Shown piece after piece: positions 9,618 through 29,464 of a DNA stretch of 64,000 nucleotides. This DNA comes from Psychrobacter immobilis (GTDB lineage: Bacteria > Pseudomonadota > Gammaproteobacteria > Pseudomonadales > Moraxellaceae), in the NCBI RefSeq assembly GCF_904846175.1, contig NZ_CAJGZM010000001.1, positions 310,001 through 374,000 on the forward strand, in the 5' to 3' direction. The first letter of the stretch is position 1; each line of letters starts with the position of its first letter. Both the position numbers and the translations under genes were made by a program. The notes below the pieces were generated by a model that did no database searches, was not told where the DNA came from, and saw only the letters and a program-made list of their open reading frames with translations.

Positions 9618-10532
9618 CTACTTATTGTCAGCTTGCAATTTAATCACACCTGCAAGATGCGGCTTATCATTCTTAGCGCTATATAAGCCAAACTCACAAG
9701 TATCTTCTGCATTTTTAAGCTGCGCAACTGGTTCTGCAATCAGCTCTACTTCAGCTGGTAAGAAGATAGGCAGCTTAAATGATACCTCAACCGTATAAGC
9801 ATCTGGTAGCTCATCCATCAAAGCCAGACACTTAGCCTTTGACCACATGCCATGAGCAATGGCTTTAGGGAAACCAAACGCGCGTGCTGATAGCGGATGC
9901 AGATGGATAAGGTTAAAGTCACCTGAAACAAACGCATAACGACGACCGATATCTTCTGGTACTTCAAAGATGCTGTGCACACCGTCTTGATTGACTGCTG
10001 GCTTCACGGTTACTGGGCGCGGCGTGCTTTTTTTATCTTTGCTGCTAGATTTTTTACCGCGTGATAAATAAGTAGACGTCCCTTCCCAAATAACTTCATC
10101 GTTTGATTTTACCGTGGTAACAAAATCAAACTGCTGACCTTGGGCATGGTCACGTAGATTATCAAATTTCACTGCCATGGCAACCGTTTCACGCTCACCG
10201 ATAGGACGGTACTGAGTGACGCTATTATCCACGTGTACCAATCCTAGCATGGCAAATGGAAACGGCTCTTTGACCATCATATTCATTTGCAACGTCTGTG
10301 ATAAGACCGAAAAATACGTCACAGGCACTTTGCCGTTGTCAGCGAAACCACAAATCTTACGGTAGTCATCAAGATTGTTTTGATCGATGTGCAAGTCATC
10401 TACATAATAGGTCGCTTGTGGCAATTGATCACGACTGATTTTACCGCTATTACCGATAGGCAATAAACTTTTGACGATATTAGCATAAGTGATATGCGCT
10501 TTTGGCAACGCATCATAATGTTTGTCTGACAT
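9618..10532 (-). CDS. MaoC-like dehydratase/hydratase
   Basis: About 304 residues. The hydratase-2 signature SGDFNLIHLHP...GFPKAIAHGM (about 203-229) carries the catalytic Asp/His pair of R-specific enoyl-CoA hydratases. Residues 1-160 look like a second, degenerate hot-dog half, and a Ser/Lys-rich linker (161-172) joins them. It probably hydrates 2-enoyl-CoA or acyl-CoA thioesters. The frame is open nine codons further, but the ATG at 10532 has AGGA at good spacing and was chosen. The next gene upstream is a FabG-type reductase, then a thiolase, so the three fit one acyl-CoA pathway. A repeat array lies in its upstream region. Confidence 0.88.
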   Translation of the reverse strand: MSDKHYDALPKAHITYANIVKSLLPIGNSGKISRDQLPQATYYVDDLHIDQNNLDDYRKICGFADNGKVPVTYFSVLSQTLQMNMMVKEPFPFAMLGLVHVDNSVTQYRPIGERETVAMAVKFDNLRDHAQGQQFDFVTTVKSNDEVIWEGTSTYLSRGKKSSSKDKKSTPRPVTVKPAVNQDGVHSIFEVPEDIGRRYAFVSGDFNLIHLHPLSARAFGFPKAIAHGMWSKAKCLALMDELPDAYTVEVSFKLPIFLPAEVELIAEPVAQLKNAEDTCEFGLYSAKNDKPHLAGVIKLQADNK

Positions 10533-10624
10533 AATAAATCCTAAGTGGGGCTTGAGCAAATTTTCTGGCTAGATGTAAAATGCGATGCATTCGTTTATTA
10601 GTAAGAGCTTTGACTGATATTGAC

Positions 10625-12386: not shown

Positions 12387-13005
12387 AATATAATCCTATA
12401 ATTAACGAGTAAAATAAAAATGGGCGGGCAGATAATAGTAAACAAAAATACGATGCGCGTATTATAAAGACTCACCCGCATTAGCATTGATAAAAATTAT
12501 TAGTATTTAGTAAGTGGGCTTAAAACTGCATCAACTATACACTTCCATGCGAAACAAGTACAAAAGCCACTAATGTCTATAACAATCTGTAGACAAGCCA
12601 GTATACAAGATGGCAACTTTTTCTAGCGTTCAAAACGCCCAACTTATGCTAAAATTTAACGTATAAGTTATGGCAAAAGCATTTATAGATAACAATATAT
12701 TATCAAATAGCCTGTTATGCAATGCAAATAATCAACACTAGCCAGTCCAATTGCCTGCTGTTGACTGGCGTGAAAAGTTATTAACCCTTGCGATAGCTTA
12801 AAAGTAGCGTCACATCATTTGCTAAAGACATACAGTAAGGTGCTAAAAAACGCCTTATCATGAGCCACTGCATTTTTGATAATAGCTGAATTTATTTTAT
12901 AGAAACATTTTACGCTCCTTTATTAAGAACTGTTTACTGTGTTTTTCTTTTAATTATTATGTTTTTACCTTTTTACTTCTACCCATACTTTTTAAGGATA
13001 ATATT
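12387..13005. promoter_or_regulatory. Divergent promoter region, FabG-type gene / thiolase
   Basis: A 619-base AT-rich region between two divergent genes. It contains a 7-base inverted repeat AACTTAT/ATAAGTT at 12641-12669 with a 15-base spacer, a possible operator. No open frame or RNA gene is apparent. Confidence 0.5.
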
Positions 13006-14658
13006 ATGAGTAATAAAAACAATCACCCTGATAGCCCTGTTGTTGAAAGCACTGTTGTAAAGGCTAGCGATACAAAAAATACCGAAATTGCTGCGAAAGA
13101 GTCAGCGACTAAAGATGCTAAGCAGCCAAACGTGTTTGATACAGTAGCAAATTCAAAAGCGACTGAGTCGAAAAAAGCGGACACTAAAGCTTCTGATGTA
13201 AAAACAGACAGCTCTAAGAAAGACGACTCTAAAAAAGACAGCGCCGCCAAAGACAGTAAAAATACCGCTGCGAAAGACGACAACAAACCGAAAGAAGCTG
13301 ATAAAAAAGCAGACACGACTAGCGCTAACAAAACCAATACGACGGCTAAAAAAGCCAGCCCAACCAAGCTTAGCTCAGGTCAACATCGCGTGGCTATCTT
13401 AGGCGGCAACCGTATTCCTTTTGCTCGTTCAAACGGTACATACGCAGATGTCAGCAACACCGACATGCTAACGGCAGCATTAGATGGTTTGGTTGAACGC
13501 TTTAATTTACAAGATAAGAAAGTCGGTGAAGTGGTTGCCGGCGCGGTCATGAAGCTGAGCCGTGATATCAACTTAACGCGTGAAGCGACATTAAGCACAG
13601 CATTGAACCCACATACTCCAACGTATGATATCTCACAAGCTTGTGGTACTGGCTTACAAGCAACGTTTGCTTCTGCCAATAAAATCGCCCTTGGTATTAT
13701 CGATTCAGCCATTACTGGCGGTGTTGATACGACTTCTGACGCGCCTATCGCAGTTGGCGATGGCTTACGTAAAGTATTGATTAAATTGGGCGCGGCTAAA
13801 GACAACAAACAACGTCTAAAAGCGCTAATGGGTTTAAATCCAAAAGACTTACTAGATACTCCGCAGAATGGCGAGCCACGTACTGGTTTATCAATGGGCG
13901 ACCATCAAGCGATTACCACACTTGAGTGGAACATCAGCCGTGAAGCACAAGATGAGCTTGCTTTTACTAGCCATCAAAACCTAGCGCGCGCTTATGATGA
14001 AGGTTTCTTTGATGACCTAATCACCCCATATAAAGGTTTGACGCGTGACAATAACTTGCGCCCAGATACCACGCTTGAAAAACTGGCTAAATTGAAACCT
14101 GTGTTTGGTAAAAAGAACGCCAACCCGACCATGACAGCGGCTAACTCTACGCCACTAACCGATGGTGCTTCTTGCGTACTATTAGGTACTGATGAGTGGG
14201 CAGCAGCACATGGTCTTAAGCCATTGGCTTATATCGTTCATCAAGAAACGGCGGCTGTGGACTTTATCGGTAAGTCTGGCGACAAAGAAGGCTTACTGAT
14301 GGCGCCAGCTTATGCGGTACCGCGTATGCTTGAGCGTGCTGGTCTGACCTTACAAGATTTTGACTTTTATGAGATTCATGAAGCATTTGCCTCACAAGTG
14401 CTATCAACCCTTGCTGCTTGGGAAGATGAGAAATTCTGTGCAGAGCGTCTAGGTCTTGATGCGCCACTAGGTTCTATCGATCGTAGCAAGCTAAACGTCA
14501 ATGGTTCATCACTTGCCGCAGGTCACCCATTTGCTGCAACCGGTGGTCGTATCCTAGCCACTGCTGCCAAACTGTTAGACCAAAAAGGTTCAGGTCGCGC
14601 GCTTATCTCTATCTGCGCCGCTGGTGGTCAAGGTGTTACTTGCATCCTAGAGAAATAA
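13006..14658 (+). CDS. Acetyl-CoA C-acyltransferase (thiolase) with long charged N-terminal extension
   Basis: A 550-residue thiolase that joins or cleaves 3-oxoacyl-CoA. The catalytic residues are present: Cys213 in QACGTG, His458 in EIHEAF, the GHPFAATGG motif near 510-520 and Cys537 in CAAGGQG. The catalytic part (about 126-550, 425 residues) has the usual length and resembles FadI-type enzymes. Residues 1-125 are an additional segment made almost entirely of Lys, Asp, Ala, Ser and Thr, with many KKAD, KDS and AKD-like repeats, probably disordered. The start is well supported by AAGGA eight bases before the ATG, so the extension is translated. It is divergent from the FabG-type gene. Confidence 0.9.
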   Translation: MSNKNNHPDSPVVESTVVKASDTKNTEIAAKESATKDAKQPNVFDTVANSKATESKKADTKASDVKTDSSKKDDSKKDSAAKDSKNTAAKDDNKPKEADKKADTTSANKTNTTAKKASPTKLSSGQHRVAILGGNRIPFARSNGTYADVSNTDMLTAALDGLVERFNLQDKKVGEVVAGAVMKLSRDINLTREATLSTALNPHTPTYDISQACGTGLQATFASANKIALGIIDSAITGGVDTTSDAPIAVGDGLRKVLIKLGAAKDNKQRLKALMGLNPKDLLDTPQNGEPRTGLSMGDHQAITTLEWNISREAQDELAFTSHQNLARAYDEGFFDDLITPYKGLTRDNNLRPDTTLEKLAKLKPVFGKKNANPTMTAANSTPLTDGASCVLLGTDEWAAAHGLKPLAYIVHQETAAVDFIGKSGDKEGLLMAPAYAVPRMLERAGLTLQDFDFYEIHEAFASQVLSTLAAWEDEKFCAERLGLDAPLGSIDRSKLNVNGSSLAAGHPFAATGGRILATAAKLLDQKGSGRALISICAAGGQGVTCILEK

Positions 14659-14716: not shown

Positions 14717-14756
14717 AAAACACCCTTTAATCCAATGATTAGAGGGTGTTTTTTTT
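14717..14756 (+). terminator. Terminator of the thiolase gene
   Basis: Stem aaaacaccct/agggtgtttt followed by a T run, about 60 bases after the stop codon. Confidence 0.85.
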
Positions 14757-14943: not shown

Positions 14944-15957
14944 ATGAGCAAGGATACCTCATCAATTAATCAGCAAACCTTAAAAACACCAAAGCGGCAA
15001 GAACTGTCAGCACTTGAACAGGAGAGTTTCATTGCCCGAATGGATAAAGAAGTGTTCGGCGATGAGCTGCGCCGCAAAATGCATCAAGACTTGATAGATA
15101 GCTATGATGAAGAGCTTGAAAATGAGATAGACGATTACGTGCGCGACTTTCGTTTTGATGGGCGCGAGATGAGTGAGCAAGAAAAGCTTGATCGCCGTAC
15201 CTATTTTCAAGAGTTATTGCGGCTGCAAAGAGAACTTATCAAACTACAAGATTGGGTGGTTGAATACGGTGAACGTATTGTGGTGATATTTGAAGGGCGT
15301 GATTCTGCTGGTAAGGGTGGCGCTATCAAGCGTATTACTCAGCGCTTAAACCCACGTGTTTGCCGCGTTGCAGCCTTACCGGCTCCAACAGAACGTGAAC
15401 AATCACAGTGGTATTTCCAGCGCTATGTAGCGCATCTACCTGCCGCTGGTGAAATCGTCTTGTTTGATCGCAGCTGGTATAACCGTGTGGGTGTCGAGCG
15501 TGTCATGGGATTTTGTACCGACGCCCAGTACGAAGAATTCTTTCAATCGGTACCTGAATTTGAGCGCATGCTGGTACGCTCAGGTATTCGTTTGGTCAAG
15601 TACTGGTTTTCGATTACCGATGATGAGCAGCATTCACGTTTTATGAGCCGGATTCACGACCCTCTTAAACAGTGGAAACTGTCAGCGATGGACTTGCAAT
15701 CACGCCGCCGCTGGGAGGATTATACCAAAGCTAAAGAGACCATGTTTGAGCGCACGCATATTCCTGAAGCCCCGTGGTGGGTGGTTGAAGGTAATAATAA
15801 AAAACGCGCACGACTAAACTGTATTGCCCATTTGCTTGAACAAATCCCTTATCAAGAAGTACCGCGTGATGAGATTGAATTGCCTGAACGTAAGCGCGAT
15901 GATGAATACTACCGCGAGCCAATTCCTGATGATATGTATGTGCCACCTCGTTATTAA
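14944..15957 (+). CDS. ppk2: Polyphosphate kinase 2
   Basis: Uses polyphosphate to phosphorylate nucleoside mono- or diphosphates, or runs in reverse. The 337 residues hold one PPK2 domain: Walker A in FEGRDSAGKGG (116-126), Walker B region EIVLFDRSWYNR (170-181) and the lid sequence RVGVERVMGFC (181-191). A helical N-terminal region of about 70 residues and a Pro/Arg-rich tail flank it. A single domain of this length fits class I enzymes, but class and preferred nucleotide are not certain. The ATG is preceded by TTAGGAG. It is a single gene ending in a strong terminator. Confidence 0.93.
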   Translation: MSKDTSSINQQTLKTPKRQELSALEQESFIARMDKEVFGDELRRKMHQDLIDSYDEELENEIDDYVRDFRFDGREMSEQEKLDRRTYFQELLRLQRELIKLQDWVVEYGERIVVIFEGRDSAGKGGAIKRITQRLNPRVCRVAALPAPTEREQSQWYFQRYVAHLPAAGEIVLFDRSWYNRVGVERVMGFCTDAQYEEFFQSVPEFERMLVRSGIRLVKYWFSITDDEQHSRFMSRIHDPLKQWKLSAMDLQSRRRWEDYTKAKETMFERTHIPEAPWWVVEGNNKKRARLNCIAHLLEQIPYQEVPRDEIELPERKRDDEYYREPIPDDMYVPPRY

Positions 15958-26548: not shown

Positions 26549-29464
26549 ATGACCGAACCGCAAAATACACCTATGAATCAAGACCCAAAAGACAACAACC
26601 CTATGGTAACACCTGTTAATAAAGCAGAAGAGTCCGAACCATTACCAACAAATCTGCCTAAAAAAAAGCCCTCTAAAACAAAGCTACCTAAAAAAGAACT
26701 GGCACGCAAAAAGCCGGCAGACATTACTGAGCCAGATAGCACATTAGATGCACCTAGCACGCCTCATGCGGTATTTATCGATGTTAATGAGCGCTGCCTT
26801 ATCAGTGCCGAGCAGCTTAAGCGTTATACGGATACCAATGAGCTACCGAGCGATACCCGCACTGCCCCCGATTTAGATATCGGCTTTGGGCAACAGCGTG
26901 CCCTTAAAGCGTTATATACGGCACTGGATATTCATGCCAGCGGCTATCATGTGTTTGCCGCTGGTGAAAATGGTTTAGGTAAACGCACGGTTATCAGTCG
27001 CTTGCTACAGCGGATTGCCGCTGACGCACCAACACCCGATGATTGGGTTTATGTATATAACTTTACCGATCCACGTACACCGCAAGCATTACGTTTACCT
27101 TCTGGTCAGGCGACCATACTACAACAACAGGTCAATCAATTGTGGCAGCAAGCCAAAAAACGACTTAGCCAGCGTTTTCGTAGCGACCAATATCAAAGCA
27201 AAATCGAAGCCATCAAAAATGATACCCATCAAAAAGAAAGTCAAGCTTACGACGACCTAAATACCGAAGGCAAACAATACGATTTGGCACTGACGTTTCG
27301 TTCATTTGATAATAAAGCGGTATTTGTACACCCAAGCCAACTACCAAAAGAAGATAGTGATAGTGAGGTTAAAGATGACAAAAACTTTAACAGCCAGAAA
27401 AATAAGTCAATAAAAGAGGAAAGTCAAAGAGCCAATATTCCTAATGGCCATATTTCTAGTGCTGATGATAGCGTTACCAAAGATGCTAGCCACGAGTACG
27501 GCAAGAGCGAATATGAAGCTGAGCTAAATAATTTTGCGCAAAAGAACCATATGCAAAAGCGTTTAAGTCAGTTAACCATCGCGTTAGAGCAATTAGAAGA
27601 CGAAGCCAATGATGCGATTGAAGCGCTACATCGCAATATTGCACGTCGAGCACTACAGCCCTTATTTGCCCCTATCTATGAGCAGTTCGCCGCCCATCCA
27701 TCGGTCGTCGACTATCTAAAAACCGTATTTACCGATATGGTCACGCATGTCGAGCGTATCGTTAATGGCGATGACGAAGAGTTTGTGACGGCAGTCCTTG
27801 CTACAACGCCAAGCCGCTATGCAGTGAACGTCATTGTCAGTCACGCGCCAGATAGTGGAGCACCTGTCATTTTTGAAGATTTGCCGACGCATTTAAACCT
27901 ATTGGGTCATGTCGAGCAAATCACCCAATTGGGTACGGTGACCACCGATGTCAGTATGATTCGAGCAGGTGCCCTGCACCGTGCCAATGGCGGCTATCTA
28001 TTGTTAGAAGCCAGTCACTTACTTGAGCACCCTTATGCATGGCAAGGTCTTAAGCGCGCCCTCCAATCACGTAAAATCAAACTCTCAAGCCTTGAGCAGA
28101 TGCTCACCTTAACAGGCAGCTTATCGCTAGCGCCCGCGCCCATTGACCTTGATATTAAGGTGATTTTGCTTGGCGAAGCGGATTTATATTACGAACTTCT
28201 AGAACTTGAGCCAGAGTTTGATGCGGTATTTAAAGTACGCGCCGATTTTCATGATGATGTGACTCGCAGCCCTGAGCACGAATTGGCATTGGTCGCCAAA
28301 ATGGCTGACATCATTGATTATGCTAACCTTTATCCTTTTGATAGCAGCGCACAAGCCGCTCTACTTGAGCATTTAAGCTTACAAGCCGAAGACCAAGACC
28401 GCTTAAGTTTACATAGCGATTTATTGATTAAGCTCTTACATGAATCCAACCGCCATGCACGTTTGAGCGGTAAAAATATCGTTAGTGCCATTCACGTCAC
28501 TTATGCTATTGACGATATGGATGAGCGCTCAGGATATTTGCGCGACCTTTATTGGGATGAGCTAAAAAATGGACAACAGCTTATTCAGACCCAAGGCGAT
28601 GCTGTTGGACAAGTAAATGCGCTCACTGTCGTCAGCTATGCCGATAGCGAGTTTGGCATGCCCGCTCGTCTGACAGCGGTCATTCAGCCAAATATCGGCG
28701 CGGGCGAAATCCTCGATATCGAGCGCGATGTGGATTTAGGCGGGAGCTTACACGCCAAAGGTATGCTGATTATGACCAGCTATTTGCGCGCCTTATTTAG
28801 TCAGCATCATGCGCTAAACTTTAGCGCCTCGCTCGCTTTTGAGCAAAGTTATGCCCATATCGATGGTGATAGTGCGACGGTCAGTGAAGGCTGCGCGCTA
28901 CTCTCCGCCTTGGCAAACGTCCCTATCAATCAATCTTTTGCGATTACCGGTTCGATGAATCAGTTAGGCGAAGTCCAAGCGGTTGGCGGTATCAATTCTA
29001 AAATCGCCGGTTTCTTTGACGCTTGCCGTGAGCAAGAGCTGACGGGACAACAAGGCGTAGTCATTCCAATGGCCAACGTCAAACAATTAATGCTACGTGA
29101 CGACATCATTGCCGCCGTTCAAGCAGAGCAATTTCATATTTATGGCGTACATACCTTAAGTGAAGCCTTGACCTTAATGACCGGTTTGCCTGTTGATACC
29201 ATGAATAAAAAAGGTCGCTACCGTAAAGAAACCTTATTTGGCAAAGTATTAAGCCGTTTGATGCTTTGGGATGAGAATCAGAATACTGATGACGAAGTCG
29301 ATGATAAAAAGTCGAAAAAGAAAGCCAAGAAAAAGCGCCAAGCTAAGCGTCAGAAAAAACAGGATAAGCAAAAAAAGTCGAAGAAAGAGAAAGGTGAGTT
29401 AGATACAAGTCCAGACGTAAATCCAGATGAAAACATAGAGAAAAATACAGAAGAGCATCTGTAG
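26549..29464 (+). CDS. Lon-like AAA+ ATP-dependent protease (YcbZ/LonB-related)
   Basis: A 971-residue cytoplasmic protease of the Lon-2 group. The P-loop ENGLGKR lies near 140-147 and a Walker B-like GGYLLLE near 480. The C-terminal serine/lysine protease domain has the catalytic Ser775 in DGDSAT and Lys818 in GGINSKI. Unusual parts are a charged leader with Lys/Pro repeats (1-60), a hydrophilic insertion (about 265-320) in the helical region between the two ATPase halves, and a C-terminal tail of about 45 residues that is extremely Lys-rich and then acidic. No clear ribosome site precedes the ATG. The cellular substrates are unknown. Confidence 0.88.
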   Translation: MTEPQNTPMNQDPKDNNPMVTPVNKAEESEPLPTNLPKKKPSKTKLPKKELARKKPADITEPDSTLDAPSTPHAVFIDVNERCLISAEQLKRYTDTNELPSDTRTAPDLDIGFGQQRALKALYTALDIHASGYHVFAAGENGLGKRTVISRLLQRIAADAPTPDDWVYVYNFTDPRTPQALRLPSGQATILQQQVNQLWQQAKKRLSQRFRSDQYQSKIEAIKNDTHQKESQAYDDLNTEGKQYDLALTFRSFDNKAVFVHPSQLPKEDSDSEVKDDKNFNSQKNKSIKEESQRANIPNGHISSADDSVTKDASHEYGKSEYEAELNNFAQKNHMQKRLSQLTIALEQLEDEANDAIEALHRNIARRALQPLFAPIYEQFAAHPSVVDYLKTVFTDMVTHVERIVNGDDEEFVTAVLATTPSRYAVNVIVSHAPDSGAPVIFEDLPTHLNLLGHVEQITQLGTVTTDVSMIRAGALHRANGGYLLLEASHLLEHPYAWQGLKRALQSRKIKLSSLEQMLTLTGSLSLAPAPIDLDIKVILLGEADLYYELLELEPEFDAVFKVRADFHDDVTRSPEHELALVAKMADIIDYANLYPFDSSAQAALLEHLSLQAEDQDRLSLHSDLLIKLLHESNRHARLSGKNIVSAIHVTYAIDDMDERSGYLRDLYWDELKNGQQLIQTQGDAVGQVNALTVVSYADSEFGMPARLTAVIQPNIGAGEILDIERDVDLGGSLHAKGMLIMTSYLRALFSQHHALNFSASLAFEQSYAHIDGDSATVSEGCALLSALANVPINQSFAITGSMNQLGEVQAVGGINSKIAGFFDACREQELTGQQGVVIPMANVKQLMLRDDIIAAVQAEQFHIYGVHTLSEALTLMTGLPVDTMNKKGRYRKETLFGKVLSRLMLWDENQNTDDEVDDKKSKKKAKKKRQAKRQKKQDKQKKSKKEKGELDTSPDVNPDENIEKNTEEHL

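Follow-up and report, generated by a model that had tools for sequence, protein, structure and literature searches.

The locus described here raises a simple question: why should a thiolase begin with some 125 residues of low-complexity sequence, and what might such an extension do? The window, by which we mean the whole stretch of 64,000 nucleotides from Psychrobacter immobilis that was analysed, contains an open reading frame (13006-14658, plus strand) encoding a 550-residue Psychrobacter thiolase of the FadA2/PRK09268 type, an enzyme of fat metabolism; the nearest loci with species names were likewise Psychrobacter. The NF006740/PRK09268 profile (acetyl-CoA C-acetyltransferase) covered residues 121-550 and scored 805.6 bits against a cut-off of 539, so that FadA2 membership was supported by a whole-core match above the curated cut-off and by the presence of C213, H458, H507, and C537, which we take to be the catalytic Cys/His/His/Cys set. 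The initial annotation had judged C213, H458, and C537 to be intact, and these residues, together with H507, were indeed without variation across a 73-row alignment. Profile match, alignment, and structure match placed the enzyme core at V129-K550 (13390-14655, plus strand). The nearest solved structure by sequence was FadA2 (PDB 7xly; phmmer E 1.1e-169, with an end-to-end alignment of the core), and whereas 7 residues precede the match in the 7xly chain, a tail of ~125 residues does so here. Since the leading family matches began at residues 121-131 (NF006740, TIGR01930, Pfam), with Pfam Thiolase_N starting at residue 129, the extension is not part of the enzyme domain. None of the three other thiolases of this genome above the Pfam cut-off carried an extension (open frames of 398, 407, and 413).

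The tail (residues 1-128; 13006-13389, plus strand) is composed mainly of K (26), A (18), S (17), D (15), T (15), and N (10), and its 27 basic and 20 acidic residues give a net charge of +7. The 100 residues from position 22 onwards consist to 95% of K/D/E/A/S/T/N/Q/P, the highest value among 338 ORFs (0.95; next 0.88), when all ORFs of at least 100 residues, with overlaps removed, were ranked over 464 kb of the genome including the window. The low-complexity extension of ~125 residues that had first drawn attention to the gene is thus real and exceptional in its surroundings. In the AlphaFold model, pLDDT was below 50 at residues 1-4 and 6-118, moderate in the core, and 60.7 on average for the whole model; docking of the tip of the tail onto the thiolase core was not seen in this model, in which confidence for the core is only moderate.

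We then considered whether the tail is made at all. Inspection of the sequence identified a Shine-Dalgarno motif, AAGGA, 7 nt before the ATG of the long start (12994-12998, plus strand), and 47 of 86 long-start proteins share the same 16 nt, TTTTAAGGATAATATT, at this start. Among 13 close Psychrobacter pairs (one locus, L079, serving in two of them), dN/dS was 0.10 (dS 0.19) for residues 2-20, 0.32 (dS 0.27) for the remaining tail, and 0.01 (dS 0.235) for the core. These ratios, and the open frames found across the genus, argue that the tail frame evolves as translated sequence, and the tail looks truly coding, as had been proposed from its well-placed ribosome site. Judged by the same ratios, the Psychrobacter tail is under selection, loosely in its spacer and firmly at its tip. 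Translation could in principle begin at the GTG codon of V129 (13390), in which case the extension would not be made; in the window gene this GTG is the sole in-frame start downstream of the ATG that lies close to the core, short relatives begin at the equivalent RVAILGG, and a TCAGG lies upstream. However, the V129 codon is GTG in only 39 of the 83 Psychrobacter proteins, the others having GTT, GTC, or GTA, and the sequences most often found ahead of it are unlike one another and for the most part without a Shine-Dalgarno motif, whereas the long start has the conserved AAGGA. Given, in addition, the purifying selection on the tail, we regard a wrongly assigned start as highly improbable.

Our comparisons were based on 144 distinct proteins from 178 loci. 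The Psychrobacter set comprised 83 proteins with 81 distinct tails (L146, a second, shortened copy of the window's gene, was left out), and because these 83 sequences, like the 34 from the Acinetobacter side, are related, counts among them are not independent events. The gene was present in all 105 Psychrobacter genomes searched and had an open frame of at least 474 residues, enough for core plus tail, in 102. Frames were broken in the remaining three (G048, G050, and G075); G075 matched from residue 1, as did L104 and L099, the apparent counterparts of G048 and G050. Residue counts in the 83 proteins revealed a conserved tip motif, which in the window reads S10-P-V-V-E-S-T-V-V-K19 (13033-13062, plus strand). 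Its consensus is S-P-[VI]-x2-[ST]-T-V-V-K, with S10 in 81 proteins, P11 in 80, V or I at position 12 in 83, T16 in 76, V17 in 83, V18 in 75, and K19 in 79. The tails otherwise ranged from 44 to 276 residues in length (median 104) and from -24 to +10 in net charge, 20 of the 83 being net negative; L181 is an example of an acidic tail. A conserved short motif embedded in a hypervariable disordered linker is one mark of a short-linear-motif tether, and this arrangement was found here. Loose patterns picked out extra spacer elements in subsets of the proteins, one resembling YDSIAELKxATDIVDADG (20/83) and another resembling KKAKIKEDL (21/83). When the proteins encoded in the same genome were searched for further copies of the tip motif, this gene alone came up. 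At the DNA level one further pattern match appeared, antisense to the ORF that covers it, and was taken as chance.

Such variability also invites a more sceptical reading, in which the tail is simply tolerated, a hydrophilic extension prone to slippage and of use at best for solubility or turnover, its tip being kept only for translation initiation or N-terminal stability. Length and composition are hypervariable; the spacer of L091 contains 12 perfect copies of a 9-nt unit, pointing to growth by slippage; the tail is absent in Moraxella and in genus g7; and the tip adjoins the start codon, where constraints on nucleotides are expected. Since tails shrink to 44 residues and are missing from these two genera, whatever function they have is dispensable. 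Yet the constraint on the tip acts on amino acids, with its low dN/dS at a dS little below that of the core, and reaches as far as residue 19. Tails also persist throughout the genus, and family f20, discussed below, is tailed as well. On balance, a purely passive extension seems doubtful to us.

Some match to the thiolase was detected in 298 of 299 Moraxellaceae genomes at E 0.001, with none found in G107 and G125 at 1e-100. Among genomes read in detail, tailed forms occurred in g1 (Psychrobacter), g8, g9, g11, g14, and g15 (Acinetobacter), and short forms in g2-g7, g10 (Moraxella), g12, and g13; g16 was covered incompletely in this survey. A search of Moraxellaceae thiolases for the same extension had been proposed, and tails were found genus-wide in Psychrobacter and also on the Acinetobacter side, there without the Psychrobacter motif. 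Relatives lacking an extension, named at the outset as an observation that would count against it, do exist in Moraxella, though within Psychrobacter the tail was found throughout. Between Psychrobacter and Acinetobacter tails we observed only a loose likeness of the first residues; as the Psychrobacter tip motif was not found in the Acinetobacter-side tails, a common binding partner would be hypothetical. As a side observation, locus L101 (BMPS01000001.1), titled Streptomyces cinereus, bears a Moraxellaceae locus with an apparent counterpart in G143 (g7), and the assembly is probably mislabelled.

In a core tree of 140 rows, the tailed forms plus Moraxella and g7 made up one clade of 127 rows (SH-aLRT 99), with the other short-form genera outside, and the label 'short' required 3 changes. 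The tree was built by a quick method, many of its inner branches are weak, and L104, L114, L128, and L146 were left out. Read most simply, it would imply a single gain in the ancestor of Acinetobacter and Psychrobacter, followed by losses in Moraxella and its sister genus g7, although one loss plus a regain would come at the same cost as one gain and two losses. The median distance from the fabG4 start to the thiolase core was 304 nt at 22 short loci, 505 nt at 34 Acinetobacter-side loci, and 915 nt in 80 Psychrobacter rows. Tailed loci thus hold more DNA in this interval, which indicates that DNA was inserted, and the tail would have arisen through such an insertion ahead of the old start. 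The structural and historical claims are strong, and we infer the course of gain and loss, and the isoforms described below, from comparison of sequences.

A candidate promoter is consistent with this origin. An extended -10-like element, TATGCTAAAAT (12645-12655, plus strand), matches the pattern TRTGYTAR and may be the thiolase promoter. When 700 nt were searched, 50 of 83 Psychrobacter loci showed the pattern, most of the matches listed lying at -298 to -406 (near -350). On the Acinetobacter side, 29 of 34 loci had it at -44 to -71 from the long start. Of 13 outgroup loci, 4 had it at -38 to -44 from the short start, and of 11 Moraxella/g7 loci, 2 had it. These positions fit an insertion between promoter and old start, although the pattern was chosen after looking at the sequences and is therefore weak evidence. 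If TATGCTAAAAT is the promoter, positions 12645-13005 would form an mRNA leader of ~350 nt before the Psychrobacter thiolase. The divergent gap has a median of 577 nt in Psychrobacter, as compared to 241 nt on the Acinetobacter side and 288 nt at short loci.

The old start appears to have survived inside the longer gene. In all 34 Acinetobacter-side proteins a Met (ATG) is found 5-10 codons ahead of the core, at the place where the short relatives begin. An AGGA, GGAG, or GAGG sequence lies 4-11 nt before this internal ATG in every one of them. The residues encoded at the internal Shine-Dalgarno vary (QD, QE, KE, KD, GD). Random synonymous recoding of them yielded the motif at an average rate of 0.24 (0.07-0.60 by protein), and at other positions of the same tails it was found 0 times in 1861. 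Codon choice was also skewed: Gln was CAG in 29 of 29 and Lys AAG in 4 of 4 cases at the internal site, compared to 135/579 and 159/1177 elsewhere. Both starts of the Acinetobacter-side thiolase are probably real, with the old one used as an internal start that would give rise to tailed and untailed isoforms. Among the 83 Psychrobacter proteins, an internal start with Shine-Dalgarno was kept in only four (L095, L096, L181, and L182), and these fall outside the 72-row tree group that contains the window gene. No internal start codon with Shine-Dalgarno was found in the window gene itself. (In the tree, the label 'tail+iM' was given to every row with a Met in the 25 codons ahead of the core, whereas a Met is treated here as an internal start only if it has a Shine-Dalgarno.) It is likely, on this pattern of conservation, that the Acinetobacter side makes both isoforms and the window lineage only tailed subunits, the internal start having been lost in crown Psychrobacter. 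In Mycobacterium tuberculosis, internal initiation gives rise to a shorter isoform of ClpB. The parallel with ClpB (PMC6168691) is that a single protein exists both at full length and with a shortened N-terminus; the isoforms proposed here, unlike those of ClpB, are predicted from conservation alone, for the Acinetobacter side and four Psychrobacter proteins, with none in the window gene.

The DNA of the Acinetobacter-side tails behaves unusually in a further respect. In nine pairs, two of them from g9, dS was 0.12 in the tail and 0.395 in the core, and with tail dS this low, part of the constraint there must act on the nucleic acid. Taken to its limit, this would make the inserted DNA mainly a leader or regulatory region, serving the old start and the divergent fabG4, with the peptide as a by-product. 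In keeping with this, the tail was better conserved than the core at the DNA level in 8 of 10 pairs from Acinetobacter, dS in the tail was 0.02-0.09 as opposed to 0.11-1.3 in codons 21-85 of neighbouring genes (the same three pairs), and a block, GTGTCAAAnnCATCAA, was invariant at 14 fixed positions in 21 sequences. The effect was, however, missing in the distant Acinetobacter pairs L150/L147 and L158/L164, in L109/L113, in the g9 pair L122/L167, in the g11 pair L126/L130, and in Psychrobacter, where dS is higher in the tail than in the core (0.27 vs 0.235). Moreover, dN/dS of the Acinetobacter-side tails is still 0.24. That the peptide is a mere by-product thus strikes us as quite unlikely, while part of the Acinetobacter tail DNA probably has a regulatory job. 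Rfam gave zero matches at the gathering threshold on the five loci searched. Tail and leader DNA in the Acinetobacter loci L109-L113, L115, and L147-L166 was often more conserved than the core in close pairs, a pattern that points to a regulatory element located within the coding region, perhaps one shared with the divergent fabG4.

The composition of the tail suggests another role, in which the Lys-rich extension would hold the thiolase at the nucleoid or at polyphosphate through binding to DNA, RNA, or polyphosphate itself. Published PASK motifs are defined as 20-residue windows in which D/E/S/K make up no less than 75% and one K is present (PMC12345225), and residues 54-88 of the tail (13165-13269, plus strand) fit this definition, reaching 17/20 (85%). 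The stretch therefore resembles those of PASK proteins in composition, and polyphosphate binding by it is putative; it differs in that the motif was present in only 16 of the 83 Psychrobacter tails, and so is not conserved, and in none of the 34 Acinetobacter-side tails. A PPK2 gene (14944-15957, plus strand; profile match) follows the thiolase, and of 80 named loci, 58 have PPK2 beside the thiolase, each of them titled Psychrobacter (four more Psychrobacter loci end before the gene could be seen). The initial annotation had a polyphosphate kinase gene following immediately; it is the next gene, but it lies 285 nt away behind a terminator-like hairpin with a T-run (14717-14752, plus strand; 16 pairs, loop 4), taken from a hairpin scan that overall found no excess of sites over shuffles (2 vs mean 2.9). 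PPK2 was not found within the stretch covered at any of 7 named Acinetobacter loci, all tailed, nor at the named Moraxella loci, nor at L091, L096, L098, and L100, which are Psychrobacter loci with tails of 184-276 residues. On present evidence we treat it as a separate downstream gene outside the tail system, and a tether to polyphosphate is not supported. Two other PASK-type sequences came to light: a 245-residue ORF with DDESNK repeats and without a Pfam match (L188:14662-15396, minus strand), and, in the window, a 971-residue Lon-like protease (26549-29461, plus strand; LonB-type AAA, LonC helical domain) that has a low-complexity N-terminus and a PASK-type stretch near its C-terminus.

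PhaF, PhaM, AlgP, and histone H1 have lysine/alanine-rich tails, to which the thiolase tails are similar in composition. The best match is with the Acinetobacter-side genera, whose tails have a high positive charge (net +8 to +20), and this is the part of the proposed likeness to histone H1 that held up. Psychrobacter tails, as noted above, can be net negative, and the window tail, with its mixture of basic and acidic residues, does not share the consistently high positive charge of histone H1. PhaC_N had 0 matches in this genome, so that the PHA-producing host expected for a PhaM- or PhaF-like granule protein was not in evidence, and strong PhaC matches (E <1e-60) were found in 4 of 38 tail-bearing genomes compared to 9 of 30 other genomes searched; the suggested tether to storage granules is not supported on these grounds. 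Across all 68 genomes PhaC bore no relation to the tail. WS/DGAT was tried as a marker of lipid inclusions and, being carried by 67 of the 68, did not discriminate; association of the thiolase with lipid inclusions is possible.

An order-wide search at 1e-80 detected the thiolase in 61 of 194 genomes. Across the order, 32 chosen regions were read. A start could be assigned in 28 of them, 23 being short, as seen from an ATG with Shine-Dalgarno, and 5 tailed, while 4 gave no start. The tailed ones were all five genomes of family f20 with a thiolase (L216 and L221-L224; outside Moraxellaceae), each with a Lys-rich tail of 23-35 residues, for example MAQAPKSTQKKTTAPKK. The short forms in other families and in outgroup Moraxellaceae point to a separate origin of the f20 tails, and a Lys-rich tail was probably gained on this thiolase two or more times. 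Such recurrence speaks against pure accident and gives mild support to positive charge having a role. For binding to DNA, RNA, or polyphosphate there are thus the f20 tails, the basic Acinetobacter-side tails, the PASK stretch, and the adjacent PPK2. Against it stand the net-negative tails of 20 Psychrobacter proteins, the scarcity of PASK, the hairpin before PPK2 and its absence at other tailed loci, and the fact that the most conserved part of the tail is its Lys-poor tip. We consider such binding rather unlikely as the main function. Of the first description of this gene, the translated disordered extension, the intact thiolase, and, as a plausible idea, the tether stand; its polyphosphate, granule, and histone H1 readings are not supported.

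The best explanation for the extension is that it is a lineage-specific, translated, disordered tail added in frame before an ordinary FadA2-type thiolase. As to its function, our best-supported guess is a tether whose tip binds one partner, to which we give a probability of roughly 45% and which we rank ahead of both the polyelectrolyte and the passive alternative. The tail would then have two parts, the conserved tip S-P-[VI]-x2-[ST]-T-V-V-K and a hydrophilic spacer free in length and charge. Thiolases of the FadA2-type family are tetramers, and such an oligomer would hold out several tips on long spacers, all binding the one partner. This partner could perhaps be a protein of lipid inclusions or one of the other enzymes that make up the FabG4-MaoC-thiolase module. 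In the window, a FabG4-type high-molecular-weight 3-oxoacyl reductase (NF006110; 10986-12386, minus strand) and a MaoC-domain dehydratase, HtdX-like by position (9618-10559, minus strand), were both identified by profile match and lie divergent from the thiolase. FabG4 was divergent upstream at 77 of 80 named loci, and the other three start too near the gene to show it. The arrangement resembles that of M. tuberculosis, where the tags Rv0242c (fabG4) and Rv0243 (fadA2), as given in PMC10699116, suggest a divergent order, and where HtdX is described as sitting in the fabG4 operon (PMC8007833). Actinobacterial lipid-inclusion proteins include FabG4 and FadA2, according to PMC10699116, a lead only as to where the thiolase may be located. 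A. baumannii without the high-molecular-weight FabG is described as growing more poorly in rich medium and as impaired in pellicle formation (PMC8007833); this phenotype speaks for the importance of the module and is silent on the tail.

A fuller account can be put forward tentatively. A disordered tether would have been gained once before a kept old start, so that tailed and untailed subunits came from one mRNA and the number of tethers in a mixed oligomer could be tuned. In crown Psychrobacter the tether would then have become obligatory, every subunit being tailed in the window lineage, with a fixed tip that recruits the enzyme to its partner. A comparable case is RNase E, the noncatalytic region of which carries microdomains, as outlined in PMC4435900: there, too, a fast-evolving disordered region on a conserved enzyme has short conserved motifs embedded in it. 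The RNase E scaffold is C-terminal and has several known partners, whereas the tail described here is N-terminal, with one main motif and a hypothetical partner. Among the literature matches listed, no title concerned a tailed Moraxellaceae thiolase or its internal start. To our knowledge, disordered extensions on bacterial metabolic enzymes have seldom been given a function.

For genome annotation, our results suggest that the annotated starts of this thiolase should be treated with care. For the biology of these bacteria, the system offers a gain placed on the tree, losses that seem to have followed, one clade predicted to make two isoforms next to another with tailed forms only, and a tip that can be mutated, which together make the role of the tail testable. 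Altogether, we view the tail as a likely tether that is worth testing.
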